From Verrucomicrobiia bacterium (lineage in GTDB: Bacteria; Verrucomicrobiota; Verrucomicrobiia; Opitutales; Cerasicoccaceae): DNA of 64,000 bases. Positions 991-59,483 of the stretch are shown here, piece after piece. The notes under the pieces were generated by a model. It made no database searches, was not told where the DNA came from, and worked only from the letters and a program-made list of their open reading frames with translations. Position 1 is the stretch's first letter. Every line of letters begins with the position of its first letter. The position numbers and the translations under genes were made by a program. Location: NCBI GenBank assembly GCA_030432235.1, contig JAUIHT010000008.1, forward strand, positions 1 through 64,000. Direction: 5' to 3'.

Positions 991-1455
991 AAATCCGGGC
1001 ACTGCCCACACCTGGAGAGGGGTAGATTCCAGCCCAAACCTCCTATTTTTAAGCCAGGAGAAGGTATAACTGCACTCCTGATTATGGTAGCAACCGTTAA
1101 AAGGTTGATGCCTCCTGGGCCATCTCCCCAAGGCGTCGCAGGGCGCGCAAGATAGCGTTCCTGTCCTACGTGGAACGCGGCGATTTCTTTTTGATAACTC
1201 AAGGGAAAATAAACGGGGGATTCATTCTGTAGGTGCTCCGAGTTGAAAAGGGAAGCTTAACGCCCGCCCCTTCGGAGGGGCCCGCTTCCTGGGGAAATTC
1301 AATGTCTGCGACGCTTTCTGAATACAAAATACAGATTCGGTCTCTCCATTCCCTTGTAGGGGGACTGCGGTGTCCTCCGTCCGTGCTGGCAATATGCAGA
1401 GGACTCCCTTCGCGAGGCCCCCTGCATGAGCAAGAAAATATGAATTCTGCGAATT
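991..1455 (+). ncRNA. Structured leader of module L, copy 1 of 3 (candidate ncRNA)
   Basis: No convincing ORF fills this 465-nt stretch. It aligns over its length with 50850-51312 and in its first third with 46208-46446. Shared blocks are AATCCGGGC, AGGGGTAGA, CAGCC, AACTGC, then (copies 1 and 2) TTTTGATAACTCAAGGGAAA, GTGCTCCGA and GGGGGACTGCGG. Several hairpins keep their place while their bases change: CTCCT/AGGAG here against CTCTT/AAGAG in copy 2; CCCCTTCGGAGGGG here against CCCC...GGGG in copy 2; and a final GCAG...CTGC stem against GCGGC...GCCGC. That pattern suggests an RNA structure under selection. It ends at the start of gene A, so it could be a long 5' UTR or a free RNA. Confidence 0.6.
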
Positions 1456-2106
1456 ATGAGAAACTACACTCTGACTTCTTCAGTACCCATATTATGTCCT
1501 GGCAACGACACTTTTATTGGGCAAACGCCCGATGGATGGATGTTCTATGAAACGCCGGATGGGCTGCTTTATCTGGCAAATCAAATCCCGACTCAAGAAG
1601 GCTACATTCTTCCAGTGAGTGAAGCGCATAGGGCCAGGCTAATTGCGCTGGCAAACCGCTTCACCGAGGGTGGCAAGCATCTGGTACAAAAGCCAAACGC
1701 GAAAGGTTATACGCCATATTCGATTCCAATGCTTCCCGGGCTTCTGGGGATGTCGCCGAGAGAGGATCGACTTTTTGGAACAGGTCAAAACATTATCGGC
1801 TTTGTAACGCAAAGCCTGGTGCCATACTTCATTCATGGCGAGCACTGCATCGTAGCCGATGCGCTGCCCTTTCGGCTGGCCTTATCTTTACTGGATAAGC
1901 TGCCCTATGCGGAGCTGACCGCCGATGCCTCCGACCCGGAGTATCCCAAAATATTTATCGAGCTAGACGGACTTTATGTCTGCTTCCATCTGGTCCATCC
2001 AGGCGATGGAAACGAACACTTTTGCGAGGGCTGCATTCATGCCACGCCAGTGCTCCTGCATGGAGAGCATGAAGGCCAAAATTTGAACCTCAAAATTCAG
2101 TCATAA
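1456..2106 (+). CDS. Module protein A, copy L (unknown family)
   Basis: A 216-residue protein of no family I recognise. The start is chosen because MRNYTLTSSVPILCP lines up with the N-termini of the copies at 51313 and 46447. Conserved blocks among the three copies: DGW near residue 27, YILPVSEAHRA, IIGFVTQSLVPYFIHGEHC, VADALPFRLA, FHLVHPGDG and a C-terminal GCIHATPVLL. No signal peptide or membrane segment is seen, so it is probably cytoplasmic. The DGW block and the final I-x-[ST]-P motif recur in module proteins E and G, suggesting one superfamily. It sits directly behind the structured leader in all three copies, so leader and A are the most constant pair of the system. Confidence 0.85.
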   Translation: MRNYTLTSSVPILCPGNDTFIGQTPDGWMFYETPDGLLYLANQIPTQEGYILPVSEAHRARLIALANRFTEGGKHLVQKPNAKGYTPYSIPMLPGLLGMSPREDRLFGTGQNIIGFVTQSLVPYFIHGEHCIVADALPFRLALSLLDKLPYAELTADASDPEYPKIFIELDGLYVCFHLVHPGDGNEHFCEGCIHATPVLLHGEHEGQNLNLKIQS

Positions 2107-2140
2107 TTTTTAGCTTTCTCATGCAAAGCTAAACTCTTCA

Positions 2141-2168
2141 AGGCGGGCCATAACGGCTCGCCTTTTTT
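2141..2168 (+). terminator. Intergenic hairpin A-B, module L
   Basis: AGGCGGGCC-ataac-GGCTCGCCT followed by a T run. The module R counterpart (51999-52025) has AGGCGAGTC-acgac-GACTCGCCT, so paired bases changed together. It could act as terminator or attenuator. It is followed by a low-G spacer rich in AAC/AAA up to gene B. Confidence 0.75.
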
Positions 2169-2217: not shown

Positions 2218-2715
2218 ATGGAACAACCTAAAACACAAAGAAAAATCGCTGCCGTCGCGCAGATCATAACCCGCCTAGCAAGAGACGGCTACTTCGAGGT
2301 CATCCTCGATGTGACCGGAGGCTTCGCCTTCCGAGATCAACTCAAATCCACTGGCTTCCAGTTCTGCAGAAACCGTTCGGCAGGCTTAGGCAGTGACACG
2401 CCCCTCGACAAAAACGGGGAGCGCTCGACCCAAGCGGTCTGGCGTCGCATCCTGGCCGCCGTGCCGCCTGAGGCCTCACCGGAGCGTGCTCTGGCCGGGA
2501 TCGAACAGGCCATCCAGGACCTCGACGATCTCCTCCAAGGCGTGCTGGAAGGCAGCCGGGTCAAAGGGGCCAAGACCAGCGCTCTCAAGCTGCGTGAACA
2601 CTACCGCACGGCCGAAGGCATCGACGCCCTTGTTGAAAAACTGGCTGCCCTGGACACGCCCTGGGTTCCCGATGAAAATGAAACCACCGTGCCGCGCCCA
2701 GCTTTCGCGGCTTAA
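2218..2715 (+). CDS. Module protein B, copy L (unknown family)
   Basis: A 165-residue soluble protein without recognised domains. It begins MEQPKTQRKIAAVAQIITRL, followed by a GGFAFRDQLKSTGFQF block, a STQAVWRRILAAVPPEASPE block and a helical C-terminal half (IEQAIQDLDDLLQGVLEG, then LREHYRTAEGIDALVEKLAAL). It ends PWVPDENETTVPRP. The copy at 52081 has the same length and is highly similar. It stands between two hairpins as a single-gene unit. No Shine-Dalgarno is evident; the 50 nt before the ATG are A/C-rich. Confidence 0.85.
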   Translation: MEQPKTQRKIAAVAQIITRLARDGYFEVILDVTGGFAFRDQLKSTGFQFCRNRSAGLGSDTPLDKNGERSTQAVWRRILAAVPPEASPERALAGIEQAIQDLDDLLQGVLEGSRVKGAKTSALKLREHYRTAEGIDALVEKLAALDTPWVPDENETTVPRPAFAA

Positions 2716-2743
2716 TCAATAACCAAATAACCTTAACCACTAT

Positions 2744-2780
2744 GGCGGGGCCCCGGTCAATCCGGAGCTCCGCCTTTTTT
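2744..2780 (+). terminator. Intergenic hairpin B-C, module L
   Basis: A 13-bp stem, GGCGGGGCCCCGG paired with CCGGAGCTCCGCC around TCAAT, then six T. The start codon of gene C lies only 5 nt after the T run. The copy at 52607-52643 keeps the stem with compensating changes. With no room for a separate promoter, an attenuator or RNA-processing role is as likely as plain termination. Confidence 0.75.
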
Positions 2781-2785
2781 ATATC

Positions 2786-3337
2786 ATGCAATATATTCAC
2801 ACACCCACACCCCAGGAAGTGCATACTTCTTTGCTTTGCGAAGCAAAGCTAATTCCTCACAGCCCTTTCTGGGACGCTTACGATCACATTCGCGGCCAGG
2901 ATGTGTCTTCGGCTTCCAACATTCTCAGGGAAGACCTCCTCGACGATGAAGGCCACCGATCGGGCAGCAAACGCCTCGGGCTTATATATAGCCTCTGCCA
3001 CGATGACGGAATCAACCTCAGCCATCTGGACTGGCCGCAAGTACTGGCGGCCGCAAATTGCCAAAGCTCACTCGTCCAGCTCTACCGGGCCGGACGCATT
3101 CTGGGAGTGCAGGCCGTCAGCGCGATGCTGGACTTCGGGCATGCCTTCGTGTCCTTGCGCTTATTCGAGATAACCGGACCCGAAGCATCCGCTTTGCTCC
3201 AGCTCTTTGACTTGGAAATGGACGTCATCCTATCCAGCCCGCAAACCGATGAGGCCATGCTCAAGTGGCTCATCGAACGCCAGGAACGAGCCGAACACTA
3301 TCTGGAACCCATCGCCGATCTCTATGCAACAGCCTGA
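2786..3337 (+). CDS. Module protein C, copy L (unknown family, paralogue of F)
   Basis: A 183-residue soluble protein of unknown function. Visible blocks: PFWDAYDHIRGQD near residue 30, SGSKRLGLIYSLCHDDGINL, LDWPQVLAAANCQS, YRAGRILGVQAVSAMLDFGH and LFDLEMDVILSS. The same framework (FW-x-AY, a C-H-D/YHAV region, LDW...AA, R-x-GRI, then H..F..G) appears in module protein F, so C and F look like ancient paralogues, mostly helical. Its last 14 nt overlap the start of gene D, which implies translational coupling. The overlap is the same length in module R. Confidence 0.85.
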   Translation: MQYIHTPTPQEVHTSLLCEAKLIPHSPFWDAYDHIRGQDVSSASNILREDLLDDEGHRSGSKRLGLIYSLCHDDGINLSHLDWPQVLAAANCQSSLVQLYRAGRILGVQAVSAMLDFGHAFVSLRLFEITGPEASALLQLFDLEMDVILSSPQTDEAMLKWLIERQERAEHYLEPIADLYATA

Positions 3338-3722
3338 CCTCTTCCTGCCGTATCCCGGCACGCGCATCCTAGCCTCAGGACCCGAAGCACTCCTTATCAA
3401 AGAATTCGATGGCACTCTCGGTATAATCGACCGCACCCGTTATCAAATCTACCGCTTAAAGCCCCTAAGCTTCAGCATCGGCTTCCAAATGCTCGGCTCA
3501 CCGATCAACGGTATGGGCCTTTTCCGGGGAGGTCTACCGGAGGCTCTCGGCTTCTGGCTAGGAAGAGGCGCAACCTACGTGGGGCTGCTCAATGACGGCA
3601 TCATGCCTGAATGCGAGCTGTTGTGCACGACCCGCATCCTCGCCAGCCCCGGCCAGCTTCAACACCGCCGAACGCCCCATGAGCCTTGGAAGAAACTCAT
3701 CTGGCATATCGAACCAAAATAA
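3324..3722 (+). CDS. Module protein D, copy L (unknown family)
   Basis: A 132-residue protein. The ATG at 3324 is chosen over upstream in-frame starts because it gives the same length and N-terminus as the module R copy (PYPGTRILASGPEALLIKEF) and a conserved 14-nt overlap with C. Blocks: GIIDRTRYQIYRL, LGSPINGMGLFRGGLPEALG, FWLGRGA, TTRILASPGQLQ. The final RILASPG resembles the C-terminal I-x-[ST]-P signature of A, E and G, so D may be a diverged member of that group. It probably works with C. No known domain is recognised. Confidence 0.8.
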   Translation: MQQPDLFLPYPGTRILASGPEALLIKEFDGTLGIIDRTRYQIYRLKPLSFSIGFQMLGSPINGMGLFRGGLPEALGFWLGRGATYVGLLNDGIMPECELLCTTRILASPGQLQHRRTPHEPWKKLIWHIEPK

Positions 3723-3773
3723 TAACCGAACCTCAACGCCTGTTTCGTCAGGCAAAACCATACAACCACTCAC

Positions 3774-3805
3774 GCGTCGGATCCCTCCAGGGGTCCGGCG
3801 CTTTT
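3774..3805 (+). terminator. Intergenic hairpin D-E, module L
   Basis: GCGTCGGATCCC pairs with GGGGTCCGGCGC and is followed by TTTTATTTT. The counterpart at 53648-53680 has GCGCCGGATCC/GGGTCCGGCGC. Gene E starts about 25 nt downstream. Confidence 0.7.
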
Positions 3806-3829
3806 ATTTTATATATAAACCAAAAAACT

Positions 3830-4282
3830 ATGAAAATTAAAATCAACCCACAAACCGACCCTTACCTTCACTTCATCGACGGCTGGCAGATTTTTCGCAC
3901 CATAAGCGAAGACCGCAGCTATTACATAATCAAAGATGGAAAGCTCATTCTGATCCTGGGCTTTCATCAAAATATTAGCTTCGGCATGGCGCTCAAAAGC
4001 AATGCTCTGCGAATCAATCACGACGTCATAGATGGTATTGATCTGCTTAGCGTAATCATGCCGCACGATGACTTGCTCATCCTCACGAATGCGGACGTGC
4101 ATGACGAACTTGCCCGGATTCTGCCTGCACACAGCGGAGGCATGAGCATCCTTTCACCCACCGTAATTTATCAGTCCGGCTACCAATCAATTCCCATTAA
4201 TGACCCACACCCAAGCGGAAAATCTTTCGATGTTTTTACTCTGGATGAGTTCGAAACCTCGGGAGGGAAAATATACCGATGA
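3830..4282 (+). CDS. Module protein E, copy L (unknown family, paralogue of G)
   Basis: A 150-residue protein. The start at 3830 is fixed by alignment with the module R copy, whose first 71 nt are identical. It opens MKIKINPQTDPYLHFIDGW, has alternating hydrophobic strands (KLILILG, IDLLSVIMPHDDLLIL), then DELARILPAHSGGMSILSP and SGKSFDVFTLDEF. The DP..D..L..IDGW opening and the G-x-x-I-x-[ST]-P motif are shared with G. Its stop overlaps the start of F (ATGA), as in module R, so E and F are probably made in fixed ratio. Function unknown. Confidence 0.85.
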   Translation: MKIKINPQTDPYLHFIDGWQIFRTISEDRSYYIIKDGKLILILGFHQNISFGMALKSNALRINHDVIDGIDLLSVIMPHDDLLILTNADVHDELARILPAHSGGMSILSPTVIYQSGYQSIPINDPHPSGKSFDVFTLDEFETSGGKIYR

Positions 4283-4821
4283 GGTTCGTGGACAAAATCG
4301 CCCGACCTAGTTCCTTCTTTCATGCGCTCCGCACCGAATACATCGCAGAGCCAGTCGACTCCTGTTTCTGGGGTGCCTACGAACTTGTTAAACAAGACCG
4401 CACCCTCGCCGCCTGGCGACATTTCAGGGATGGTCTCAGGCAAAGTATCTACGGTCCAGAAGCCGATCAGGTCACCAGCCGCTACTTACTGTATCATGCT
4501 GTCGGCCGCTACCAACGCATCGATACCCAAGGCCTGGACTGGCTGCACCTGATCGTCGCCGCCGGGCTCACACTCGAAGTCCAGCGTTGGATCTGGGCAG
4601 GAAAAATCGGGACCATACACTACTGGCACGCATGTTTTGAACTGGGCAAGCTGCCTAAATTTCTGCCGCTCATGCTTCAGCCTGAGCCAGAAGAAATCAC
4701 GGCCCTCTTGAAAACATACGCCCTCGAGCAAAGGTGCTTTTCGAAGTATCATGGCTCACCGCCTTACGCCGAAGATTTCTGGGTCCAGCGTCAGGCAGTA
4801 GCCACCGCTTTTCTCATTTAA
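4279..4821 (+). CDS. Module protein F, copy L (unknown family, paralogue of C)
   Basis: A 180-residue, mainly helical soluble protein. Blocks: ARPSSFFHALRTE, AEPVDSCFWGAYELVKQD, LAAWRHFRDGL, SRYLLYHAVGRYQRID, GLDWLHLIVAAGLTLEVQRW, WAGKIGTIHYWHACFELGKL. The order FW-x-AY, YHAV, LDW..AA, R-x-GKI, H..FELG matches protein C. It is translationally coupled to E through ATGA. The C-D and E-F pairs each join one helical C/F-type protein with one D/E-type protein, in opposite order. Function unknown. Confidence 0.85.
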   Translation: MRFVDKIARPSSFFHALRTEYIAEPVDSCFWGAYELVKQDRTLAAWRHFRDGLRQSIYGPEADQVTSRYLLYHAVGRYQRIDTQGLDWLHLIVAAGLTLEVQRWIWAGKIGTIHYWHACFELGKLPKFLPLMLQPEPEEITALLKTYALEQRCFSKYHGSPPYAEDFWVQRQAVATAFLI

Positions 4822-4852
4822 ATTATAACCAACAACCATTCATCAACCATGG

Positions 4853-4887
4853 GCCGGTCTCCCATCCGAGGAGGTCGGCTATTTTTT
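4853..4887 (+). terminator. Intergenic hairpin F-G, module L
   Basis: A 10-bp stem, GCCGGTCTCC with GGAGGTCGGC, then ATTTTTT. The module R version is at 54718-54755 and there precedes the radical SAM gene instead of G. Gene G follows after an A/C-rich spacer. Confidence 0.7.
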
Positions 4888-4926
4888 AACTACAAACCAC
4901 AACTACTAATTATAACCAATAAGACC

Positions 4927-5349
4927 ATGAATATGAACTCCAATATCGACCCCAGAAACGACACACACCTTGAAGTAATCGACGGGTGGCGCATTTACGC
5001 CGCCCGGTATACTGCCCAGCTATATCTGCGCGGCAAAAATTTCTTCATCTTCATCAACGGTCAGGAGGCTACCACACGCCTGTTACTCGCCCTGTATCAG
5101 GGAGTCGAAAAAATTGAATTCAGCGAGGCCTGTGAATCCGAATCGCTGACCATTCATTATGGTCAGGGAGAAGTGCTAAGCTTGGTTAACTTTTCTGTGG
5201 ATGAAGATACATATGAAATCTTTCAAGAACACAAGCCCGGCCACTGCATTGTTTCTCCACACATAATAATCCAGTACGGGCACCCCGCTATTGTAGAAGA
5301 TGATCTTCCATCAGGCTGGGTGCTGCAGGTGCTTCAACTGCGAGGGTGA
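4927..5349 (+). CDS. Module protein G, copy L (unknown family, paralogue of E)
   Basis: A 140-residue protein starting MNMNSNIDPRNDTHLEVIDG (start matched to the module R copy). Blocks: the IDGWRIY opening, YLRGKNFFIFINGQEA, VLSLVNFSVDEDTYEIFQEH, GHCIVSPHIIIQYG and DLPSGWVLQVLQLRG. The first block and the I-x-SP block are those of E. The 3' half of the gene and the non-coding DNA behind it are nearly identical to module R, while the 5' half has diverged more. This suggests either gene conversion between modules or selection on the nucleotide sequence. Function unknown. Confidence 0.85.
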   Translation: MNMNSNIDPRNDTHLEVIDGWRIYAARYTAQLYLRGKNFFIFINGQEATTRLLLALYQGVEKIEFSEACESESLTIHYGQGEVLSLVNFSVDEDTYEIFQEHKPGHCIVSPHIIIQYGHPAIVEDDLPSGWVLQVLQLRG

Positions 5350-9207: not shown

Positions 9208-10160
9208 CTCACAAGGCGCTATTTTAAGCGGAATTCTGCTGTTTTGGCTTTGTTCAATTTCAATCACGGTGATTGAAATCAAGCCACACAACTGAACGTC
9301 CGTATACTGTATGATGGGTGAAAAACACTGCACGATTTCAATCATTTCAATCACGAAGGGTCTAAATGATACTTCAACCTCTTCAGATATTAGGTGTTGC
9401 CCAAGTAAAAGTCGAGCGATGGAGTAGGTTGACATAGCTTGGATAGTCGCACGATTGCCGAATAGGAACGAGAGTTCAGAATGAAAGATATCAATGAGAC
9501 TTTGGGGTTAACCGGGGCAGCACCACGAGGCGGGCAGGGTGTTTCGTTGTTTAGTTAGAGTAGGCGAGATTAGCTCCTGAATCCATAATATGGAGGGTTG
9601 GTAGAGTCGAGAAGCTCTTATATCCAGACTGGCATCCGATATGCCGTGGTGCCGGGTAGAGCCGCCCATTGCTGGGTGACTCCCCCACAGACCTGGACGT
9701 ACACGTTTGATGCATCCAGTTCCTCTGTGAATGAGATTCGCTAAACGTCTAGGTGATAGATACTCGGTGGTGTGATGCCATATAGACAGGTGGCTTTGTT
9801 AACGAAGTCGGAGAAGCGGTCCTGGATACTAGCGCAGTTTCTCGTTCTTCGTTGCAGCCATCCAAACATACCTATTTCGAAACTCAATCACACAGCCTAA
9901 GCATCACCCTGTCTACGCTTCACGCCTTCGTTGCCTCCGGGCTATCAAGACACGGTTCTGATTGTTTGCCAAACGCTATCAGGCGGGCTCTCTCTCACCC
10001 GCTGGGCATATACTCTGACTTTCAATGAACGATTTTTTCTTCTACGTCACGTCCCATCAGATTGGGCTTTCATGGCGCAATGGCTCGTAGGTTGAATAGG
10101 CCAGTAAATTGGGAGTTCGATTTCATTCTTCCACTACACAAACTATCAGATAAAAAATAG
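9208..10160. other. Gene-free stretch with decayed mobile DNA
   Basis: No believable ORF lies in this roughly 950-bp stretch. Its centre (9640-10013) looks like a degenerate group II intron on the minus strand, listed separately. The remainder shows no structure I can name. It separates module L from the metal-resistance cargo. Confidence 0.5.
9640..10013 (-). mobile_element. Degenerate ORF-less group II intron
   Basis: On the minus strand the sequence opens GTATATGCCCAGCGGGTGAG and continues with GGAGGCAACGAAGGCGTGAA, both like domain I of bacterial group II introns. At 9690-9723 a hairpin (CTGGATGCATC ... GTACGTCCAG) followed by TCTGTGGGGGAG resembles domain V. Further on, GGCTCTACCCGGC resembles the intron 3' end. 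There is no maturase between them, so it is shortened to roughly 370 nt. Identification is from remembered consensus; boundaries are approximate. Confidence 0.45.
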
Positions 10161-45391: not shown

Positions 45392-45407
45392 TGACAGATT
45401 TCTGTCA
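45392..45407 (+). promoter_or_regulatory. Palindromic operator over the antitoxin start
   Basis: TGACAGATTTCTGTCA is a perfect inverted repeat (TGACAGA/TCTGTCA) that ends in the A of the antitoxin ATG (45407). The place suggests autorepression by the antitoxin complex. No Shine-Dalgarno precedes the ATG. Confidence 0.5.
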
Positions 45408-45661
45408 TGCAAACAACGCTTCGCATCAATGATACCACCTACCGCCGGGCCAAAGCAAAGTCCAGCGAGCTTGGGCTGAGCCTGACGCGCTTCTTTGAAG
45501 AAGCGGTCGAGGAGCGTCTGGCCAAGTTGGAGAAACAACCCATTCGAGGAAAGTTCTCTCTGCCCGTTAGTTCCGTTGCCGGTTCACGCCTGAGTCAGGA
45601 AGAATATACGAGACGCATCCTGGGTACCTCCGATGAGGACGATCTCACTGGTCTGAAGTAG
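45407..45661 (+). CDS. vapB: Antitoxin of a PIN toxin pair, VapB-like
   Basis: An 84-residue antitoxin. The N-terminus MQTTLRINDTTYRRAKAKSS followed by ELGLSLTRFFEEAVEERLAK is a ribbon-helix-helix DNA-binding domain; the C-terminal tail (SQEEYTRRILGTSDEDDLTG) is the probable toxin-neutralising part. The toxin gene starts 1 nt after its stop. A palindrome covers its start codon. Confidence 0.85.
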   Translation: MQTTLRINDTTYRRAKAKSSELGLSLTRFFEEAVEERLAKLEKQPIRGKFSLPVSSVAGSRLSQEEYTRRILGTSDEDDLTGLK

Positions 45662-45662
45662 C

Positions 45663-46091
45663 ATGGATCTACTGGATAACAATATTCTGATCTACGCCTT
45701 GCGTCCTGATGCGCCGCATCATGCCCGGGCCAAGCAGTGGCTGGAGGATGCAATCAACTCAGGCCAGGCGATTCGACTCTTTCCCACTGTGGAAGTGGGG
45801 TTTTTGCGTATTGCGACTCATCCTAAAATCTTTTCGCCCCCAACTCCCTTCGATGAAGCTGCGGATTTCCTTCGGGTACTGTGCTCTGCACCGAACGTGG
45901 AAAATTGCCCGTGGACAGCCTCAGCAAGGGATCGCTGGATTGAACTTTGCCAGGACATCAGCTTAAGTGGCAATGACTGCAACGACGCCATGCTGGCAGC
46001 GGTTTGTCTCGAACGAGGCCTGCGTCTGGTGACCTTCGACCAAGGCTTTGCACGCTTTCCCAGACTTCAGCTACTATGCTTAGAGGGGTAG
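45663..46091 (+). CDS. vapC: PIN-domain ribonuclease toxin, VapC-like
   Basis: A 142-residue PIN nuclease. Acidic active-site residues fit: MDLLDNNILIYAL (first Asp), FPTVEVGFLRIAT (Glu), LSGNDCNDAMLAAVCLERGL (Asp) and LVTFDQGFARFP (last Asp). PIN toxins cleave RNA, often tRNA, when released from the antitoxin. The pair probably stabilises the island. Confidence 0.87.
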   Translation: MDLLDNNILIYALRPDAPHHARAKQWLEDAINSGQAIRLFPTVEVGFLRIATHPKIFSPPTPFDEAADFLRVLCSAPNVENCPWTASARDRWIELCQDISLSGNDCNDAMLAAVCLERGLRLVTFDQGFARFPRLQLLCLEG

Positions 46092-46207
46092 GGCTGTTTT
46101 TTTGGGGGCTAATGCTGACGTTCGTCGATATTCCAAAAATGTTGATGAACATCGACACGGGCAGTATTGGTGCCATGGTTGAGCATGGAACACTTTACTT
46201 TCTATTT

Positions 46208-46446
46208 TAATCCGGGCGCAGGTGCCCGGCGAGGGGTAGAGACCAGCCTGAAGCTCCTATAAGAAAAAGAGATGGAGCAAACTGCACATCGAGATGATGG
46301 TAGATAAAACCAGGGTAGGGGGGCTACAGATAAGGGGGGCGGGCATCGTGCGATGCCCTGTCTGTGTACACAAGCTCCTCGAAAAGGAGCCTTCGGCCCC
46401 GTTTTTCCCTTCGGCGAGAAGGATGACAAGAGGGTTCTCTGAACTT
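46208..46446 (+). ncRNA. Structured leader, copy 3, before the solitary A gene
   Basis: Begins AATCCGGGC like the other two copies and keeps AGGGGTAGA, CAGCC and AAACTGCAC. Hairpins: CCGGGC...GCCCGG at the front; CTCC...GGAG where copy 1 has CTCCT/AGGAG; then GGGCATCGTGCGATGCCC and GCTCCTCGAAAAGGAGC, both perfect. The second half differs in sequence from copies 1 and 2 but is again a chain of hairpins. It ends at gene A3. Confidence 0.55.
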
Positions 46447-47175
46447 ATGAAAAATACACCCTTATCCTTTTCCACCCCTATATTATCCATGCAGCGCGAC
46501 CTGTGCTTGGGCGAAAGCCCAGGCGGCTGGTCGCTCTTTCAATCCCCTCTTGGGCGGATCTACCTTGGCTGTCATGCACCCGGCGAGGAGGAATACATAC
46601 TGCCTTTACGTGCCGACATTATTGAGACGTTTCAGAATCTATTCCACAAGCACTCTCACTGTGCTCCCGAATCTGTCGCTGAGGATGCTGAAACCACTGA
46701 CGAAACATTCGAAGACTCTGTTTATATATATGACGATGTTTCCAATGAAGATGTCGATGATATTGACGAATGGGATGGCATCGATGGTGGCGATGCCGCC
46801 AACGGAGATGTTCTTTCACTGCGCCCGGGCCGGGACCGGGTGACGGGATCCGGTGACGATATTATCGGCTACGTAACACCGTTCGGAGTGCCTTATTTTC
46901 TGCACAATGACTACTGTGTCGTCTGCGATGCGCTGCCATTTCGGATCGCGTTCGGGCTATTGAATTCTACTGAAGACGCAGACATCATTGCCGACATGGC
47001 GAATCCGATATCGCCGAAGATCCATCTTCGTCAAGGTGAGCTTCATTTAACCTTTCACCTCACTCATATCGATGGCTTCAAGCCAGAATGCGCTGATGGT
47101 GTTATACACGCCACCCCGCTACTTCTCATCGGCACCTACAAGGGCAAACGTCTTCACCTGTCGCATCAGGACTAA
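46447..47175 (+). CDS. Module protein A, solitary third copy with acidic insert
   Basis: A 242-residue homologue of the A proteins at 1456 and 51313. The start at 46447 (MKNTPLSFSTPILSMQRDL) matches their N-termini. Shared blocks: GGWSLFQSPLGRIYL, YILPLRADIIETF, IIGYVTPFGVPYFLHNDYC, VCDALPFRIAFGLL, FHLTHIDGF, GVIHATPLLL. Between the first and second block it carries an insert very rich in Asp and Glu (for example SNEDVDDIDEWDGIDGGDAA) absent from the others. No B-G genes follow, so A plus leader can stand without them. Confidence 0.82.
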   Translation: MKNTPLSFSTPILSMQRDLCLGESPGGWSLFQSPLGRIYLGCHAPGEEEYILPLRADIIETFQNLFHKHSHCAPESVAEDAETTDETFEDSVYIYDDVSNEDVDDIDEWDGIDGGDAANGDVLSLRPGRDRVTGSGDDIIGYVTPFGVPYFLHNDYCVVCDALPFRIAFGLLNSTEDADIIADMANPISPKIHLRQGELHLTFHLTHIDGFKPECADGVIHATPLLLIGTYKGKRLHLSHQD

Positions 47176-47243
47176 CTGGTCAATACCGGGCTAAACCTCA
47201 ATTGGTAAACTTAACGGCAACAAAATGGGCAAATACCTGTGAA

Positions 47244-48074
47244 TCAAAAATTCTTCAACAGGCGTTTGAGCCACAGGTGCTGATCTATCCACCCTAAACG
47301 GGCGACAAAGTTTCGGGCATCAATGAAAGGTTGGTGCAAATACACGGGATCCTTTGAATCTGGTCGCGAAATTAGGCATGTGTCTTGCCCGGATAGTGAA
47401 ACAGAAAAAATGAAAGTAGACTTTTCAGGGTCATAATCGCTCTCAGCTCCCAAAACCACAAGGTGTGGCGTGAAACTTACGGCGCCATCAAGACTATGGG
47501 ACGCCAGCCAAGCGGCCATGTCTTGGATGCGTCTGTGCGCCTCTGCTATTCGAGCCGCTTGTAACTCCCTCCAAAATGCGGCGTGCTTTTTTATGTTAAG
47601 CACACTCGCACCACAATGCGGACTACTCCAAGCTTTTTGGCCTTCTTCGGGTAAGCCAAACTCTTCAAGCATCATTTGGAGCCAACGAATGCCGCGATCA
47701 GCTTTGGGGTCCATGAGCCATGAGATAAATTCACTGCTCCATGGCCAGAGTATTTCGACAGCTTTTTGGGGCAGAGGTGGCAGCACTAGAACATTAAACT
47801 CTTCTGCCTCCTTTTCTGTTCGTATGGGCAACACCATATAGCCGAGGCAGGGTGTAATGTTTCCCGGCCTTATTGGAATCAGGTTCTCAGTGGCTCCTTC
47901 CCAGCGTATGCGCTGGCGAGCATCTTTGAGAACATGGGTAACCCGTCGGCGCAACTCACGATCACGCTCTTGAGACCATCGCTCCCTAAGCTGAAGTAGC
48001 TCATAGTCGTTAAAACCAGCGGCGTGGGCCGCCTCGAATCCACGTGTGAAATCCCAATCATGTACGCGGTCCAT
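47244..48074 (-). CDS. Hypothetical partner of the PD-(D/E)XK-like protein
   Basis: A 276-residue protein (ATG 48074, 2 nt behind the upstream stop; an in-frame ATG at 48113 would overlap that gene). The N-terminal third is helical and basic (LLQLRERWSQERDRELRRRV); further on FISWLMDPKADRGIRWLQMM and HLVVLGAESDYDPEKSTFIF. No named family is recognised. It forms a two-gene operon with the nuclease-like gene. Confidence 0.7.
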   Translation of the reverse strand: MDRVHDWDFTRGFEAAHAAGFNDYELLQLRERWSQERDRELRRRVTHVLKDARQRIRWEGATENLIPIRPGNITPCLGYMVLPIRTEKEAEEFNVLVLPPLPQKAVEILWPWSSEFISWLMDPKADRGIRWLQMMLEEFGLPEEGQKAWSSPHCGASVLNIKKHAAFWRELQAARIAEAHRRIQDMAAWLASHSLDGAVSFTPHLVVLGAESDYDPEKSTFIFSVSLSGQDTCLISRPDSKDPVYLHQPFIDARNFVARLGWIDQHLWLKRLLKNF

Positions 48075-48076
48075 GT

Positions 48077-48622
48077 TTAATTGCACTCCATGATTGCGGC
48101 GGCGATAGCGCAAAGTTGCCCGGCAGAAAAATCAAAAGTCTTAATCCTCGGGCGACTTTTTCTCGAACCTCCATAGAAATAAACCAATTTTGGATGCACA
48201 GATTTGCCTCTGTATTTGCGGCAAAGGGCATAGGTGTAAAGAGCAAGCTGTCTGACATGTTTAGTGTCTGGCTTTCTTGGACAACGACGGGGAGCCCACT
48301 TTGCCTCTATAACGGTAACGTCATTTCCCAAAATTTGAACCAGGTCGGCGAAGCCCCGCCATGAACCCCAAGTGTTCAGCTCATGATTTCGCTTCCAAGA
48401 GTAGGCAGTGAGTCTGACCTGCTTGGTAAACTTCTCAACCATACCCTTAAGCCCGGGGTCGGTTATACCCTTCACCAAATAATCATCAAGAGCTTCTCCG
48501 CCTGAAACTCCAGTCGATGGGCGAAATGTGTGACCACGACGGAAGCATAAATCCGATTCAGAGAATTTCAGACGATACAAATGGAGTTCTGATTCAAAGG
48601 CGAGTTTCTTGGCTGCTTTCAT
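48077..48622 (-). CDS. PD-(D/E)XK nuclease-like protein
   Basis: A 181-residue protein. The ATG at 48622 is preferred; longer frames start inside the operator palindrome. The core is WRGFADLVQILGNDVTVIEA followed by KWAPRR: an Asp then E-x-K on a strand, then KHVRQLALYTYALCRKY, the helix with Q-x3-Y seen in RecB/Cas4-type PD-(D/E)XK nucleases. It has no iron-sulfur cysteines, so it is not Cas4. With its partner and the divergent regulator it looks like a small defence or DNA-processing cassette. Confidence 0.7.
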   Translation of the reverse strand: MKAAKKLAFESELHLYRLKFSESDLCFRRGHTFRPSTGVSGGEALDDYLVKGITDPGLKGMVEKFTKQVRLTAYSWKRNHELNTWGSWRGFADLVQILGNDVTVIEAKWAPRRCPRKPDTKHVRQLALYTYALCRKYRGKSVHPKLVYFYGGSRKSRPRIKTFDFSAGQLCAIAAAIMECN

Positions 48623-48636
48623 AGCGCGCATAAAAT

Positions 48637-48682
48637 GTTGCGCGATACGCAACGTCAACTAAAAAGTTGCGTACCGGACAAC
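48637..48682. promoter_or_regulatory. Twin palindromic operators between nuclease and XRE genes
   Basis: GTTGCGCGATACGCAAC (48637-48653) and GTTGCGTACCGGACAAC (48666-48682) share GTTGCG-N7-CAAC and lie 29 bp apart in the divergent promoter region. They are probable binding sites for the XRE protein at 48702. Confidence 0.6.
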
Positions 48683-48701
48683 ATTAGTTTTTTAGTACTC
48701 C

Positions 48702-49010
48702 ATGGCTGAGAAAAAATCGAAGCGTGAGATAAGTGCTTTCGGCAGGGCTCTGGAAGCCATCCGCCGTGAGCAAAAACTTACGCAGGAAAAATTTGTCGAT
48801 AATTTAAGCCTTAATCGCTCCAGCTACATCTCGATGCTCTACCAAAGACACTCACCCGGGCCGACCCTGATGAAAAGGATTCTCACGGATGAGGCCGTCA
48901 GTCTTGAACAACGCGCCGGCCTTCTGTCGCTTTACTTTGAGCACCAACTTGATGTCCAGCTGGAAGCCAAAGATTTCGAGGTCGCAGTAAAATTGAAAAA
49001 CAAAAGCTAA
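48702..49010 (+). CDS. XRE-family regulator divergent from the nuclease pair
   Basis: A 102-residue helix-turn-helix protein: FGRALEAIRREQKLTQEKFV, LSLNRSSYISMLYQRHSPG, LMKRILTDEAVSLEQRAGLL, and a C-terminal strand part (LDVQLEAKDFEVAVKLKNK). It faces the nuclease operon across twin palindromes and probably represses both promoters. Confidence 0.82.
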   Translation: MAEKKSKREISAFGRALEAIRREQKLTQEKFVDNLSLNRSSYISMLYQRHSPGPTLMKRILTDEAVSLEQRAGLLSLYFEHQLDVQLEAKDFEVAVKLKNKS

Positions 49011-50509: not shown

Positions 50510-50851
50510 ATGATGCGGTGTTTAAAGGGCTATCTTATGAGGTATATTTCATGGGTGCCTAGCTCCTATGAAGTCCTCATTACTAATCTTCGTAATTTGC
50601 GTGAAACCAACGATTTAACGCAGGAGAAGGTTGCGGAGCGATCCGGTCTTGACTACAAGCATTATCAAGGGATTGAGGCAGGTCGACGACCTGAGCTACG
50701 CCTATCCACAGTGGATAAGCTGGCCAAAGCCTACGAATTACAAGCCTGGCAACTGCTGCAGCCAAAGCGAGGCAGCTCAAAAGCACCTGAAAAGCGTGTT
50801 GGTAGACCGCCTAAAAAGCCTGCCTCAAACAAGCGCCCGCAGGCGGGCTAG
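50510..50851 (+). CDS. XRE-family regulator with AT-hook-like tail (module R)
   Basis: A 113-residue protein (a later ATG at 50537 is possible). HTH: LRNLRETNDLTQEKVAERSG, DYKHYQGIEAGRRPELRLST, AKAYELQAWQLLQ. The basic tail KRVGRPPKKPASNKRPQAG has the R-G-R-P core of AT-hooks. A decayed copy of the same tail sits at 929-984 in module L. It immediately precedes the structured leader of module R. Confidence 0.82.
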   Translation: MMRCLKGYLMRYISWVPSSYEVLITNLRNLRETNDLTQEKVAERSGLDYKHYQGIEAGRRPELRLSTVDKLAKAYELQAWQLLQPKRGSSKAPEKRVGRPPKKPASNKRPQAG

Positions 50852-51312
50852 ATCCGGCTGCGGGTCGCACCCGGCGAGGGGTAGATATCAGCCTGATGCT
50901 CTTAAATAAACAAGAGACAGGAATAACTGCGCTCGAGATTAAGTTAGAAGCCGCAAAAGGGGGTGGCGTAGAGTTTGTGAACAGGGATCTGTCTCAGCCT
51001 TTACGCTCTAACGCCTCCAGGCTGCGGAGCTTCTCCTGTACGCGCTGACGGTAGCGCCGTTGACGCTCGGCGCTCTTTTGATAACTCAAGGGAAATCAAA
51101 CGGGGGGAATTGATTCTTTAGGTGCTCCGAACTGGCTAGGGAAGCGTGACGCCCCCCGTTTCAGGGGAGCCTGCTTCCTGAGGGCAAATGAGAAATACGG
51201 TCACTCCATTCCCATCTAGGGGGACTGCGGTTTCCTCCGTCCGGGCTGGCAAACGCGGCGGCTACTTCGTTCACGCCCAGCCGCTCTCTAAAGCTAATGA
51301 GTTCTGCGAACT
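50850..51312 (+). ncRNA. Structured leader of module R, copy 2 of 3 (candidate ncRNA)
   Basis: Aligns with 991-1455 throughout. Conserved words include AGGGGTAGA, AACTGC, TTTTGATAACTCAAGGGAAA, GGTGCTCCGAACT and GGGGGACTGCGG. Stems with changed but still paired bases relative to copy 1: GCTCTT/AAGAG, CCCC/GGGG, and GCGGCGGC/GCCGC before gene A. No open frame is shared between copies. Seen directly; the RNA interpretation is inference. Confidence 0.6.
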
Positions 51313-51963
51313 ATGATATACAATACACTGGCTTTTACTACTCCTATTCTATGTCCCTGTAACGACGTGTTCTACGGGCAAACACCCGATGGCTGGATGC
51401 TCTATGAGACACCGGATGGGCTCCCTTACCTCGCTAAAGAAAGACCTCCAGTGCAAGGCTACATCCTTCCGGTCAGTGAAGCGCATAGGGCCAGGCTAAT
51501 TGCGCTGGCAAGACGCTTCACCGAGGGTGGCAAGCATCTGGTACAAAAGCCAAACGCGAAAGGTAATACGCCACATTCGATTCCAATGCTTCCCGGGCTT
51601 CTGGGGATGTCGCCTGCACAGGATAGGCTGATTGGCTCCGGCAAGAACATTAACGGCTTTGTGACGCAAAGCATGGTGCCGTACTTCATTCACGGTGAGC
51701 ACTGCATCGTAGCCGATGCGCTTCCATTTCGGCTGGCCTTCTCTTTAATGGTTAAGCTGCCCTATGCGGAGCTGACCGCTGATGCCTCCGACCCGGAGCA
51801 TCCCAGAATATTCATCGATCAAGACGGACTTTATATCTGCTTCCACCTGGTCCATCCAGGCGATGGAAACGAATATTTTTGCGAGGGCTGCATCCATGCC
51901 ACGCCAGTGCTCCTCAAAGGTGAACATGTAGGCAAAAATCTGCACCTCAAAATGCAGCCATAA
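51313..51963 (+). CDS. Module protein A, copy R (unknown family)
   Basis: A 216-residue protein, same length as the module L copy. N-terminus MIYNTLAFTTPILCPCNDVF; blocks DGWMLYETPDGLPYLA, YILPVSEAHRARLIALARRF, INGFVTQSMVPYFIHGEHC, FHLVHPGDGNEYFCEGCIHA. The central stretch from the SEAHRA block to the PMLPGLLG block is almost identical at DNA level to module L, while the ends differ more, so the two copies may have exchanged sequence. Followed by a TTAGCTTT/AAAGCTAA stem and the A-B hairpin. Confidence 0.85.
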   Translation: MIYNTLAFTTPILCPCNDVFYGQTPDGWMLYETPDGLPYLAKERPPVQGYILPVSEAHRARLIALARRFTEGGKHLVQKPNAKGNTPHSIPMLPGLLGMSPAQDRLIGSGKNINGFVTQSMVPYFIHGEHCIVADALPFRLAFSLMVKLPYAELTADASDPEHPRIFIDQDGLYICFHLVHPGDGNEYFCEGCIHATPVLLKGEHVGKNLHLKMQP

Positions 51964-51998
51964 ATTTTTAGCTTTCTCATACAAAGCTAAATTCCTCA

Positions 51999-52025
51999 AG
52001 GCGAGTCACGACGACTCGCCTTTTT
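51999..52025 (+). terminator. Intergenic hairpin A-B, module R
   Basis: AGGCGAGTC-acgac-GACTCGCCT then TTTT. Counterpart of 2141-2168 with paired substitutions. Confidence 0.75.
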
Positions 52026-52080: not shown

Positions 52081-52578
52081 ATGGAACAACCCAAAACACA
52101 AAGAAAAATCGCTGCCGTCGCGCAGCTTATAACCCGCTTAGCGAAAGACGGCTACCTAGAGGTCATCCTCGATGTGACCGGAGGCTTCGCCTTCCGCGAT
52201 CAACTCAAATCCGCAGGCTTCCAGTTCGTCAAAGACCGGTCGGCTGGTCTGGGCAGCGACATCCCCCTCAACAAGAACGGGGAGCGCTCGACTCAGGCGG
52301 TCTGGCGCCGTATCCTCGCTGCCGTACCGCCTGAGGCCTCACCAGAGCGTACTTTGGCTGGACTCGACCAAGCTATTCAGGACCTGGAGGAACTCCTCCA
52401 AGGCGTGCTGGAATCCTCGCGCGTAAAAGGGGCTAAAACCAGCGCCCTCAAGCTAAAGGAGCACTACCACACAGCTGAAGGCATCGATGTCCTTACTGAA
52501 AAGCTGGCCGCCCTAGATACGCCCTGGGTACCCGATGAAAATGAAACCACCGTGCCGCGTCCTCAATTCGCGGCCTAA
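52081..52578 (+). CDS. Module protein B, copy R (unknown family)
   Basis: A 165-residue protein, the same length as the module L copy, with MEQPKTQRKIAAVAQLITRL, GGFAFRDQLKSAGFQFVKDR, STQAVWRRILAAVPPEASPE and the PWVPDENETTVPRP end. It is single between two hairpins. No function can be proposed from sequence. Confidence 0.85.
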   Translation: MEQPKTQRKIAAVAQLITRLAKDGYLEVILDVTGGFAFRDQLKSAGFQFVKDRSAGLGSDIPLNKNGERSTQAVWRRILAAVPPEASPERTLAGLDQAIQDLEELLQGVLESSRVKGAKTSALKLKEHYHTAEGIDVLTEKLAALDTPWVPDENETTVPRPQFAA

Positions 52579-52606
52579 CCAATAACCAAACAACCTCAAC
52601 CATTAT

Positions 52607-52643
52607 GGCGGAGTTCCGGTCATTCCGGGGCTCCGCCTTTTTT
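52607..52643 (+). terminator. Intergenic hairpin B-C, module R
   Basis: GGCGGAGTTCCGG pairs fully (with two G-T) with CCGGGGCTCCGCC around TCATT, then six T; gene C starts 6 nt later. Counterpart of 2744-2780. Confidence 0.75.
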
Positions 52644-52649
52644 GTCACC

Positions 52650-53201
52650 ATGCAATACATCTATACACCCACACCCCAAGAAGTACATACTTCTTTGCTT
52701 TGCGGAGCAAAGCTAACACCTAGAGGTCCCTTCTGGGACGCCTATGATCACATCCGCGGCGACGATATGTCTTCTGCTTCGAACATTCTCAGAGAAGAAT
52801 ATCTCGACGAAGAAGGCCATCGATCGGGCAGCAAAAGACTCGGGCTCATATATAGCCTCTGCCACGATGACGGAATCAACCTCAGCCACCTTGACTGGCC
52901 ACAACTCCTGGCAGCCGCAAATAACCAAAGCGGCCTCGTACAACTTTACCGGGCAGGACGCATCCTGGGAGTGCAAGCCGTCAGCGCGATGCTGGACTTC
53001 GGTCACGCCTTCCCGTCGCTGCGCCTATTCGAGATAACCAGACCAGAAGCATCCACATTGCTCCAGCTTTACGATCTGGAAATGGACGTGATTCTCTCCA
53101 GTCCGCAGACCGACGAGGCCACGCTGACTTGGCTGGTGCAAAGGCAAGCTCGCGCTGAAGAATACCTCGAACCACTCGCAGACATCTATGTTAAAACCTG
53201 A
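52650..53201 (+). CDS. Module protein C, copy R (unknown family)
   Basis: A 183-residue protein. ATG 52650 is taken because it equals the module L start; an in-frame ATG at 52605 lies inside the hairpin and has no counterpart in frame in module L. Blocks as in copy L: PFWDAYDHIRGDDMSSASNI, LGLIYSLCHDDGINLSHLDW, YRAGRILGVQAVSAMLDFGH. It overlaps D by 14 nt. Confidence 0.85.
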   Translation: MQYIYTPTPQEVHTSLLCGAKLTPRGPFWDAYDHIRGDDMSSASNILREEYLDEEGHRSGSKRLGLIYSLCHDDGINLSHLDWPQLLAAANNQSGLVQLYRAGRILGVQAVSAMLDFGHAFPSLRLFEITRPEASTLLQLYDLEMDVILSSPQTDEATLTWLVQRQARAEEYLEPLADIYVKT

Positions 53202-53589
53202 TGCCTATCTGCCTTATCCAGGCACACGTATCTTAGCCACTGGGCCCGAAGCACTTCTTATCAAAGAATTTGATGGAGCCATCGGGGTTATCGACCGTAC
53301 CCGCTACCAGATATACCGTCTGCCCCCCATCAGCTTCAGCATCGGCCTACAGCTTCTCGGCTCACCAATCAACGGGGTGGGCCTCTTTCGGGGAGGCTTA
53401 CCGGAGGCGCTGGGCTTTTGGCTGGGACGCGGCGCTGTGATGGTGGGCATGCTAGATGATGGGCTCATGCCCGAAAGCGAGCTGCTTCACACGACCCGCA
53501 TCCTCGCCAGCCCCGGCCGACTGCAATACCGCCGAAGCGCCACCGATTCCTGGAAAACGCTCATCTGGCATATCCAGCCGCAATCATAA
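53188..53589 (+). CDS. Module protein D, copy R (unknown family)
   Basis: A 133-residue protein beginning MLKPDAYLPYPGTRILATGP. Blocks: LLIKEFDGAIGVIDRTRYQI, LLGSPINGVGLFRGGLPEAL, GFWLGRGAVMVGMLDDG, LHTTRILASPGRLQYRR. It starts within the last codons of C (14-nt overlap), as in module L, so translation of D probably depends on C. Confidence 0.83.
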   Translation: MLKPDAYLPYPGTRILATGPEALLIKEFDGAIGVIDRTRYQIYRLPPISFSIGLQLLGSPINGVGLFRGGLPEALGFWLGRGAVMVGMLDDGLMPESELLHTTRILASPGRLQYRRSATDSWKTLIWHIQPQS

Positions 53590-53647
53590 AACACACTCAA
53601 GGCCTGCACCCGCAGGTTTTAACAAACAACAAAATCAACCAACTCAC

Positions 53648-53680
53648 GCGCCGGATCCTTACAGGGTCCGGCGCATTTTT
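53648..53680 (+). terminator. Intergenic hairpin D-E, module R
   Basis: GCGCCGGATCC-ttaca-GGGTCCGGCGC then ATTTTTATTT. Counterpart of 3774-3805. Confidence 0.7.
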
Positions 53681-53699
53681 ATTTCTACACTAAAATCAC

Positions 53700-54149
53700 A
53701 TGAAAATTAAAATCAACCCACAAACCGACCCTTACCTTCACTTCATCGACGGCTGGCAGATTTTTCGCACCACAAGCGAAGACCGCAGCTTTTATCTAAT
53801 CAAAGACCAAAAGCTCATTCTCATCCTGGGCGAGGTCCATAACGAAGTCTTATCCCTGGCATTGCAGAGCGATGTTCAGCGAATCCGTTACGACTTTATC
53901 GACGAAATCGAACTGCTCAGCGTTCTTCTGCCAAAGGATCAACTGTTGATCTTCACCAATGTAGAAGTACATGAGGAACTTGCTCGTATCCTGCCGGCTC
54001 ACCACGGAGGTATGTCCATCCTGACTCCTGGTGATATTCACCAATCCGGCTGCGAGCCTACGAAGGTGGAAGCGCTGCACCCCAGCGGTAAATGCTTCGA
54101 CGTTTTCACCCTGGATAAATTTGAAGCTGGAGGAGAGATGCACCGATGA
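53700..54149 (+). CDS. Module protein E, copy R (unknown family)
   Basis: A 149-residue protein, identical to copy L over the first 24 residues (71 identical nt) and then diverging. Blocks: DGWQIFRTTSEDRSFYLIKD, KLILILGEVHNEVLSLAL, IELLSVLLPKDQLLIFTNVE, ELARILPAHHGGMSILTPGD. ATGA overlap with F. Paralogue of G. Confidence 0.85.
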   Translation: MKIKINPQTDPYLHFIDGWQIFRTTSEDRSFYLIKDQKLILILGEVHNEVLSLALQSDVQRIRYDFIDEIELLSVLLPKDQLLIFTNVEVHEELARILPAHHGGMSILTPGDIHQSGCEPTKVEALHPSGKCFDVFTLDKFEAGGEMHR

Positions 54150-54688
54150 CGCTGGAAGACACACTCGCCCGGCCCAGCTCCTTTTTCCATGCGCTCCGCA
54201 GCGAAGACATCGCCGAGCCCGTGGACTCCACCTTCTGGGGGTCGTACGAACTCGTTAAACAAGACCGCATGCTTGCAGCCTGGCGGCATTTTCGGGAAGG
54301 TCTCACGCAAAGCATATTCGGTCCAGAAGCCGATCAGGTCACCAGTCGCTACCTGCTTTATCATGCTGTCGGCTGTTACCAACGCATCGATAGCCCCGGC
54401 CTTGACTGGCTGCATCTGATTGTCGCTGCGGGGCTAACCCTCGAAGTACAGAGATGGATACGGGCAGGGAAAATCAGGACCATCCACTACTGGCACGCCT
54501 GTTTTGAACTGGGCAAGTTGCCTGACTTCTTGCCGCTCGTGCTGCCACCGGAGACTGAAGAAATCGCGGCCCTCCTCGTAACATACGAATTAGAGCAAAG
54601 GTGTTTTTCGAGGTATTACGGGACGCTCCCGTATGCCACAGACTTCTTGCATCAACGCCAGGCTGTCGCCATCGCCCATCTCCTCTGA
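54146..54688 (+). CDS. Module protein F, copy R (unknown family)
   Basis: A 180-residue protein, same length as copy L. Blocks: LARPSSFFHALRSEDIAEPV, FWGSYELVKQDRMLAAWRHF, SRYLLYHAVGCYQRID, GLDWLHLIVAAGLTLEVQRW, HYWHACFELGKLPDFLPLV. Translationally coupled to E. Paralogue of C. Confidence 0.85.
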   Translation: MTLEDTLARPSSFFHALRSEDIAEPVDSTFWGSYELVKQDRMLAAWRHFREGLTQSIFGPEADQVTSRYLLYHAVGCYQRIDSPGLDWLHLIVAAGLTLEVQRWIRAGKIRTIHYWHACFELGKLPDFLPLVLPPETEEIAALLVTYELEQRCFSRYYGTLPYATDFLHQRQAVAIAHLL

Positions 54689-54717
54689 AAAGACACCAAC
54701 AACCATTCATCACTGAA

Positions 54718-54755
54718 GAGCCGATCTCCCATCCTAGGGGGTCGGCTCTTTTTTT
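54718..54755 (+). terminator. Intergenic hairpin after F, module R
   Basis: GAGCCGATCTCCC-atccta-GGGGGTCGGCTC then seven T. Counterpart of 4853-4887 but followed by the radical SAM gene. Confidence 0.75.
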
Positions 54756-54775
54756 AACTTCAACAACTACAAACC

Positions 54776-55750
54776 ATGAACAACGAACGAACCACTATGA
54801 ACCGTAAGCCGGTGTTTACTGTGCCGGCACGCACTATTCTTAATCTCCAATCGGCCTTCCAGCATAAGCTGCTTTGCGACGGACCAACCTTCAGCGCGGG
54901 CAGCGCCTGCGCCTACTCATGCGCTTTCTGTTACGTGCCCTCGATGATGAACCGATCCGCGCATGCGAACGTGCTCACTGAATCCAAAACACGATTTGAA
55001 GACGCCGTCATTCGACGTCAGAGCGCAGCTAAAATCCTGCATGATCAGCTCCACTTTTCTGATGGACGACCACGTTTCAACGATCCCAAAGACACGCGGG
55101 TAGTGTACGCATCACCCTTGGTCGATGTCGCAGCCAACATGGAGTTGGTACGCGAGACTATTGAGTTGTGCCGTATAATTTTGGAGTCAACACACTGGCA
55201 AATTCGCTTGCTCTCCAAAAGCAACCTGCTCCCCGTCATTGCACGAGAACTGTCCGACTTTCGCAGCCGTATGATCTACGGCGTTTCCACCGGAACTTTG
55301 GACGATGGTGTTGCTCAAGCAATAGAAGCGGGTACGCCGCGGGTGTCCAAGCGCATCAAGTCCCTCCATACCTTACAGGATGAGGGCTATCGGACATATG
55401 GCATGATTTGTCCGAGTTTGCCGCAAGACGACTACTTTGCCTTCAGCCGGGAGATGTGCCGCGCCATCCGTACCGAGAAATGCGAACACATTTGGTGCGA
55501 AGTTATAAACGTCCGTGGGCAATCCATGAACCGCACAGTCGATGCACTGCGCCAAGCAGGCTACGATGCCGTTGCTGCTCAACTCGCGGCCACAAGTAAC
55601 CGAAGCATTTGGGAGGCTTACGCAAGAGAGACTTTTCTTGCGCATACGCAATTTATCCCGCCGCAAAAGCTGAGATTTTTACAATACGTTACACCTGAAA
55701 CCCGCAACTGGTGGACCCAGCAAACATACAGAGGAGCGATTCTCCTGTAA
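54776..55750 (+). CDS. Radical SAM protein, spore-photoproduct-lyase-like, inserted in module R
   Basis: A 324-residue radical SAM protein (ATG 54797 would give 317). The cluster motif CX3CX2C is GSACAYSCAFCYVPSMM near residues 45-52. Further on FNDPKDTRVVYASPLVDVAA, STHWQIRLLSKSNLLPVIAR, SRMIYGVSTGTLDDGVAQAI EAGTPRVSKR and GYRTYGMICPSLPQDDYFAF. The arrangement resembles the SPL/SplB-like radical SAM group (DNA photoproduct repair and relatives), without a substrate-specific sign. Module L lacks it. It sits between two hairpins of the F-G type, like an added cassette. Confidence 0.82.
   Translation: MNNERTTMNRKPVFTVPARTILNLQSAFQHKLLCDGPTFSAGSACAYSCAFCYVPSMMNRSAHANVLTESKTRFEDAVIRRQSAAKILHDQLHFSDGRPRFNDPKDTRVVYASPLVDVAANMELVRETIELCRIILESTHWQIRLLSKSNLLPVIARELSDFRSRMIYGVSTGTLDDGVAQAIEAGTPRVSKRIKSLHTLQDEGYRTYGMICPSLPQDDYFAFSREMCRAIRTEKCEHIWCEVINVRGQSMNRTVDALRQAGYDAVAAQLAATSNRSIWEAYARETFLAHTQFIPPQKLRFLQYVTPETRNWWTQQTYRGAILL

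Positions 55751-59408: not shown

Positions 59409-59483
<75 letters not shown>

Follow-up and report, generated by a model that had tools for sequence, protein, structure and literature searches.

Gene A and its operon

The window analysed in this work is a stretch of 64,000 nucleotides of the contig JAUIHT010000008.1 from a Verrucomicrobiia bacterium. It contains three copies of a gene, here called A, that encodes a protein of a family without Pfam, NCBIfam, or PHROG match (1456..2106, 51313-51963, and 46447-47175, + strand). The leaders 991-1455, 50850-51312, and 46208-46446 are each located directly 5' of one copy of A (P0001, P0002, and P0003), and a fourth leader with its own A copy is found on the same contig at 173.8-174.7 kb, outside the window. 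Cluster 2 also comprises the genes B-G (52081..55750, +), of which B, C, D, E, and F are of no recognised family, and G encodes a radical SAM protein (54776-55750). The small proteins of the operon, A-F and H, gave no Pfam, NCBIfam, or convincing PHROG match, and when the structures of A (pLDDT 73) and B (pLDDT 80) were modelled, neither resembled a known fold convincingly.

Between clusters 1 and 2, which are recent paralogues, identity is about 80% over several kb. There are also paralogous pairs inside the operon (C/F and E/H; 2218-5349 and 52081-54688 of the window) and two D-like genes in copy 4. These pairs, together with the altered gene order in a second genome of the same family (G002), suggest repeated gene duplication and shuffling. 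Genes for large serine recombinases lie some way behind clusters 1 and 2, and G002 carries two copies of the unit that are 99.7% identical over 7.7 kb; thus, the unit looks like a mobile or duplicating element. Direct repeats marking the ends of the element were looked for and none were found. A tRNA-Asn gene (59409-59483, - strand) lies directly behind the serine recombinase of cluster 2, with no matching direct repeat upstream of the cluster.

The conserved core of the leaders

The initial annotation of this DNA had described the three leaders of the window as copies of a large structured RNA of about 450 nt, tied to A and with no shared ORF. There is indeed no reading frame conserved among them: most of the indels between the leaders of clusters 1 and 2 have lengths not divisible by three, and the tblastx signal is spread over many frames and both strands. 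The short invariant words that it had noticed are also common to the three leaders. The size has to be reduced, since the part common to all sites is only about 105 nt at the leader 5' end, the remainder varying between sites or being missing. A further 220 nt or so are common to the leaders of clusters 1 and 2 alone, and because these two clusters are about equally similar throughout, this long-range likeness is not by itself evidence of an RNA.

Six distinct sites carry this core, which consists of a hairpin (P1) with the words AGGGGTAG and AACTGCRC..CGAGAT: five are in the genome of the window (three of them in the window itself) and one, duplicated, is in G002. The first core, c1 (991..1096, +; alignment A9), carries P1 and the AGGGGTAG and AACTGCAC..GAT words, c2 (50850..50953, +) starts at the stop codon of an XRE-type gene, and c3 (46208..46312, +) precedes a lone gene A; c4 is the copy at 173.8-174.7 kb. 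The same 105 nt or so were found as c5 by a scan of G002, a carrier of A-like and B-like genes, directly behind an XRE gene. With a covariance model (R1) built from five core sequences, c1, c2, and c3, all of them training sequences, score 87.3 bits (E 7.6e-26), 107.2 bits, and 98.7 bits, respectively. The same model detected c6 (L050:3386-3488), outside the training set, on another contig of the window's genome with 60.7 bits (E 1.5e-15). The diverged copies c3, c4, c5, and c6 keep the core in differing surroundings, c3 and c6 being reduced or degenerate sites with one following gene and none, respectively.

An XRE-type gene precedes the core at c1, c2, c4, and c5 (four of the six sites), with the core in the operon direction. 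At c2 it is a repressor gene (50510..50851, +; Pfam HTH_3/HTH_31); its counterpart at c1 is another XRE gene (602-880), followed by a relic of the 3' end of the c2-type gene at 930-977, as detected by tblastn. The first gene behind the core differs between sites, being A in c1, c2, and c4 and B in the second genome, where the core lies about 1.8 kb ahead of B as first gene of the operon. At c6, A is gone and only a possible relic of its ATG is left. A specific link of the core to A is refuted by c5 and c6.

Between the core and the operon of G002 there is an ORF of 404 aa, lipoprotein-like, on the strand opposite to the operon (L012 10372-11586, +), and by eye a similar-looking protein is encoded at L050 5471-6490 (-). 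An island is duplicated between the window (45407-49010) and L050 (1351-5392). Its first genes, named by eye as are the others, are a VapBC-like small-protein/PIN-like pair; the core follows, accompanied by A in one copy and not in the other, and behind it lie a pair of opposite-strand ORFs and then an XRE gene.

The core is narrowly distributed. Over 273 relatives, the R1 model gave convincing matches in two genomes only, all other matches having E values of at least 2e-4 and being chance-like. A scan for the core motif in 384 genomes of the class returned only the two known genomes, and the same scan of viral contigs returned none. Similarly, B was present only in these two genomes among 388 of the phylum. 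No homologues of A or B were found in IMG/VR, none of A in plasmids, and none of B in phages or in GTDB contigs. The Rfam search that the initial annotation had suggested, run over the window at the gathering score, gave no match for the core, and with a relaxed E-value it returned nothing meaningful for c1, c2, and three further loci.

Evidence for RNA structure

P1 pairs columns 5-12 of alignment A9 with columns 21-28, and five of its eight pairs show compensatory changes among the six sequences. The pairing holds in 85% of the cells, compared with 31-42% when the partner is slid by one to three columns, and the covariation score was reached by 3 of 500 shuffles. As the six sequences come from two genomes and partly share their ancestry, this support is good but not overwhelming. 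Together with similar changes in a hairpin next to the ATG of A (see below), the compensatory changes in P1 support the view that the leader is a structured RNA.

Conservation in the core is highest in the words AGGGGTAG and AACTGCRC..CGAGAT, with c4 and c1 each deviating in one of them; these words look unpaired. Single-sequence folding energies are only mildly below those of shuffles (z -1.3 to -2.2). The paired changes pointed out originally (CTCCT/AGGAG against CTCTT/AAGAG and GCAG/CTGC against GCGGC/GCCGC) are present in the leaders. As a conserved second stem, CTCCT/AGGAG was rejected by eye because it fails in c4 and c5, and a stem CTGC..GTAG was likewise inconsistent over the six sites. 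In c1, c2, c4, and c5, a GC-rich hairpin can be drawn by eye immediately 5' of P1, and not at the same place in c3 and c6. The word GCTCTTAAA in c2 might be read as boxA-like; a 16S gene, whose rRNA leader could be compared with it, was looked for in the assemblies and none was found.

The chance that the leaders are decayed coding sequence, or untranslated spacer kept only by recent duplication, is very small: copies 1 and 2 are paralogues throughout and a 3' relic of an XRE gene precedes c1, but the diverged cores c3-c6 persist in different surroundings, P1 changes in a compensatory manner, and no frame is conserved.

Intrinsic terminators between the operon genes

Many of the operon genes have a predicted terminator of their own. 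Cluster 1 has strong predicted intrinsic terminators, all on the + strand, between A and B (2140..2168; dG -17.7, TTTTTT), B and C (2744..2780; dG -24.0), D and E (3772/3774..3805; dG -22.8), and F and H (4852..4887; dG -15.6). Those of cluster 2, also on the + strand, lie between A and B (51998..52025; dG -16.5), B and C (52607..52643; dG -26.3), D and E (53648..53680; dG -23.0), and F and the radical SAM gene G (54715..54755; dG -24.9). To these four terminators in each cluster, copy 4 adds three and the second genome six, always in the operon direction; on the opposite strand, we saw no hairpin of similar strength whose stem is immediately followed by a T-run. The A/B terminator is itself conserved as a structure: in its four copies 9-10 of 10 positions still pair although both bases have changed together in most pairs, and the T-run has been retained.

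A strong terminator at most 60 nt before the next start was found in 10 of 21 codirectional gene pairs of the operons and in 4 of 84 pairs elsewhere in the genome (Fisher p 8e-6, or 1e-4 without cluster 1), a count made with crude ORF calling on operons that are related to each other. The start codons lie 5-58 nt after the terminator stem, and in several cases these gaps are too short for separate promoters. In three copies, the stem before C ends 11 (in cluster 1), 12, and 25 nt ahead of the ATG, where a promoter would have hardly any space or none; C is therefore unlikely to be expressed unless the polymerase reads through the terminator.

Weaker, terminator-like hairpins are found inside two of the leaders, about 60-110 nt after the core. 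They occupy the same place in c1 (1156..1190, +; CGTTCC..GGAACG, then the T-rich TTTCTTTTT) and c2 (51053..51079, +; AGCGCCG..CGGCGCT, then CTTTT), with different stem sequences. The leader of c4 has no U-tract terminator and that of c3 only a poor one, and there is no clear terminator behind the single gene of c3.

A possible role in processive antitermination

Because the genes behind the core are separated by strong terminators, the most likely role of the core would be to let RNA polymerase through these stops. The core follows an XRE gene and heads an operon interrupted by terminators, a position that suggests a leader element acting in cis and not a free-standing RNA. In our estimation, the chances are about even that the core is a new and narrowly distributed cis-acting RNA antiterminator heading the element operon, a proposal drawn from gene order and sequence, with six core sequences from two genomes.

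According to this proposal, a transcript would start at or before the XRE gene, so that the operon would be co-transcribed from the promoter of that gene, and the core would fold behind it into P1 and the unpaired AGGGGTAG and AACTGCRC..CGAGAT words. The folded core would then bind RNA polymerase or a host factor, and the modified polymerase would pass the leader terminator and the three to six further terminators. Without the core, a stray transcript would end at the first terminator. The terminators would in this way insulate the unit against such transcription and keep it silent up to the release of its own promoter.

The literature consulted here describes only a few antiterminators that consist of RNA alone or are centred on an RNA, from a lambdoid phage and from Gram-positive bacteria (PMC11658703; PMC8955417; PMC9378689). 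The canT region of Tn916, shown experimentally to pass several terminators, is a cis-acting region of 452 nt that works in one orientation (PMC11658703). Like the core, it is an RNA of a mobile element, located sense-upstream of an operon with several internal intrinsic terminators, and has a complex predicted structure (PMC11658703); the likeness is one of layout, the functional region of canT having 452 nt and the conserved core about 105 nt, and canT belonging to a Gram-positive integrative and conjugative element, in another phylum. In pLS20, conAn1 and conAn2, a protein/RNA pair, stand at the start of an operon that contains over 20 terminators, and ConAn1 is a processivity factor (PMC8955417). 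Both systems have an RNA at the start of a terminator-rich operon and a small gene beside it, although the neighbour here encodes an XRE-type HTH protein, and no conjugation genes were recognised around the core.

The put RNAs of HK022, of about 70 nt, bind RNA polymerase, putR being located about 270 nt behind the PR start (PMC9378689). These RNAs act in cis, as predicted here, and are short hairpin RNAs, but put consists of two adjacent stem-loops that bind the beta' zinc-binding domain (PMC9378689), whereas one hairpin, P1, is supported in the core and its other conserved parts look unpaired. Finally, EAR is an operon-leader RNA antiterminator of the eps operons of Bacillales (PMC11658703; PMC8955417), a different phylum and operon, and the core loci have no Rfam match to any family.

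The core shares with the RNA processive antiterminators a structured RNA in sense orientation at the head of the predicted transcription unit, at c1, c2, c4, and c5, and predicted internal intrinsic terminators that are enriched relative to the rest of the genome. It matches none of the described members in Rfam and is assigned to none of these families, although it may work like them. We would entertain, with somewhat less confidence than the cis-acting role itself, a new class of RNA processive antiterminators, unrelated in sequence to put, EAR, conAn2, and canT, which would head undescribed multi-copy element operons of Verrucomicrobiota, perhaps together with the XRE gene. The kind of system is known, and the novelty lies in a core that has no sequence match to any known RNA family. 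If the proposal is true, the core would add an antiterminator from a different phylum, without recognised sequence relation to the others, and would suggest that this kind of control has been invented more than once by mobile elements. The built-in terminators make the claim directly testable.

Several observations speak against antitermination. At c3, with one gene and no clear terminator, and at c6, with no gene, there would be little for an antiterminator to do, and in the second genome the opposite-strand ORF of 404 aa separates the core from the operon. Moreover, the same spacing would result, with no antiterminator involved, from leaky terminators or from hairpins that only stabilise the ends of mRNAs.

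Hairpin next to the ATG and other possible functions of the core

In all four A leaders, a short hairpin ends 1-2 nt before the ATG of A. It was located at 1443..1455 (+; AATTC-TGC-GAATT), 51300..51312 (+; AGTTC-TGC-GAACT), and 46434..46444 (+; GTTC-TCT-GAAC), and it covaries between the copies (ATTC-TGC-GAAT, GTTC-TGC-GAAC, GTTC-TCT-GAAC, and GGTC-TCC-GACC). Hairpins adjacent to the start in this way were found at 4 of 163 ORF starts of the genome at large, the window's own A genes included, and the chance of finding one in three independent A leaders is about 1e-5. This hairpin probably serves the translational control of A, separately from the core.

The hairpin is also the main reason why we retain some confidence in an otherwise unlikely reading, in which the core is a riboswitch-like or autoregulatory cis-regulator of A itself, translation being switched by the hairpin at the ATG and the leader hairpin serving as an attenuator. 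Such a regulator would agree with c3, which is core plus A alone, and with the T-rich tract of the leader hairpin in c1 and c2. It agrees poorly with a core that stands ahead of B in the second genome and persists without A at c6, and is thus not always upstream of A, and with the region between the core and the hairpin, which is not conserved across c1/c2, c3, and c4.

Ornate RNAs such as GOLLD and ROOL are also known from phage-related DNA. A free-standing noncoding RNA, either a trans-acting sRNA or an ornate RNA of this type, with its end at the leader terminator or immediately 5' of A, would account for the conserved structured core, for the terminator-like hairpin behind it in c1 and c2, and for carriers that resemble mobile elements. 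We consider it rather improbable, as the leaders of c3 and c4 provide no common 3' end and an operon, or what is left of one, always lies downstream of the core in the sense direction. GOLLD and ROOL are structured like the core but far longer (PMC12286853), and neither the several hundred conserved nucleotides nor the Rfam match by which the core would be assigned to the large ornate RNAs (GOLLD, ROOL, and OLE) was found.

Still less probable is a site acting at the DNA level, such as a repressor operator or a recombination or replication site, whose stems would be RNA only in appearance. The core does adjoin an XRE repressor gene at four sites, and serine recombinases are encoded behind clusters 1 and 2. 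Nevertheless, the core is behind and not before the XRE gene, most of its conserved words are unpaired and asymmetric, and the arms of P1 change jointly while the sequence drifts, a pattern that keeps the pairing and not a protein-binding sequence.

Relatives of G and a group II intron match

The search for relatives of the operon genes gave a different picture for the radical SAM gene G, which has relatives in contigs of Opitutae MAGs and in two IMG/VR contigs (L059 5936-6895; L060 10001-11005; L051; L054), where A-F and the core are absent. The G protein is 54-60% identical to these relatives, which stand alone, and the IMG/VR contigs have, by eye, phage-type neighbours. In addition, a gap between ORFs of the window (9837-9993, -) matches the Rfam group II intron family D1-D4-6 with 56 bits.
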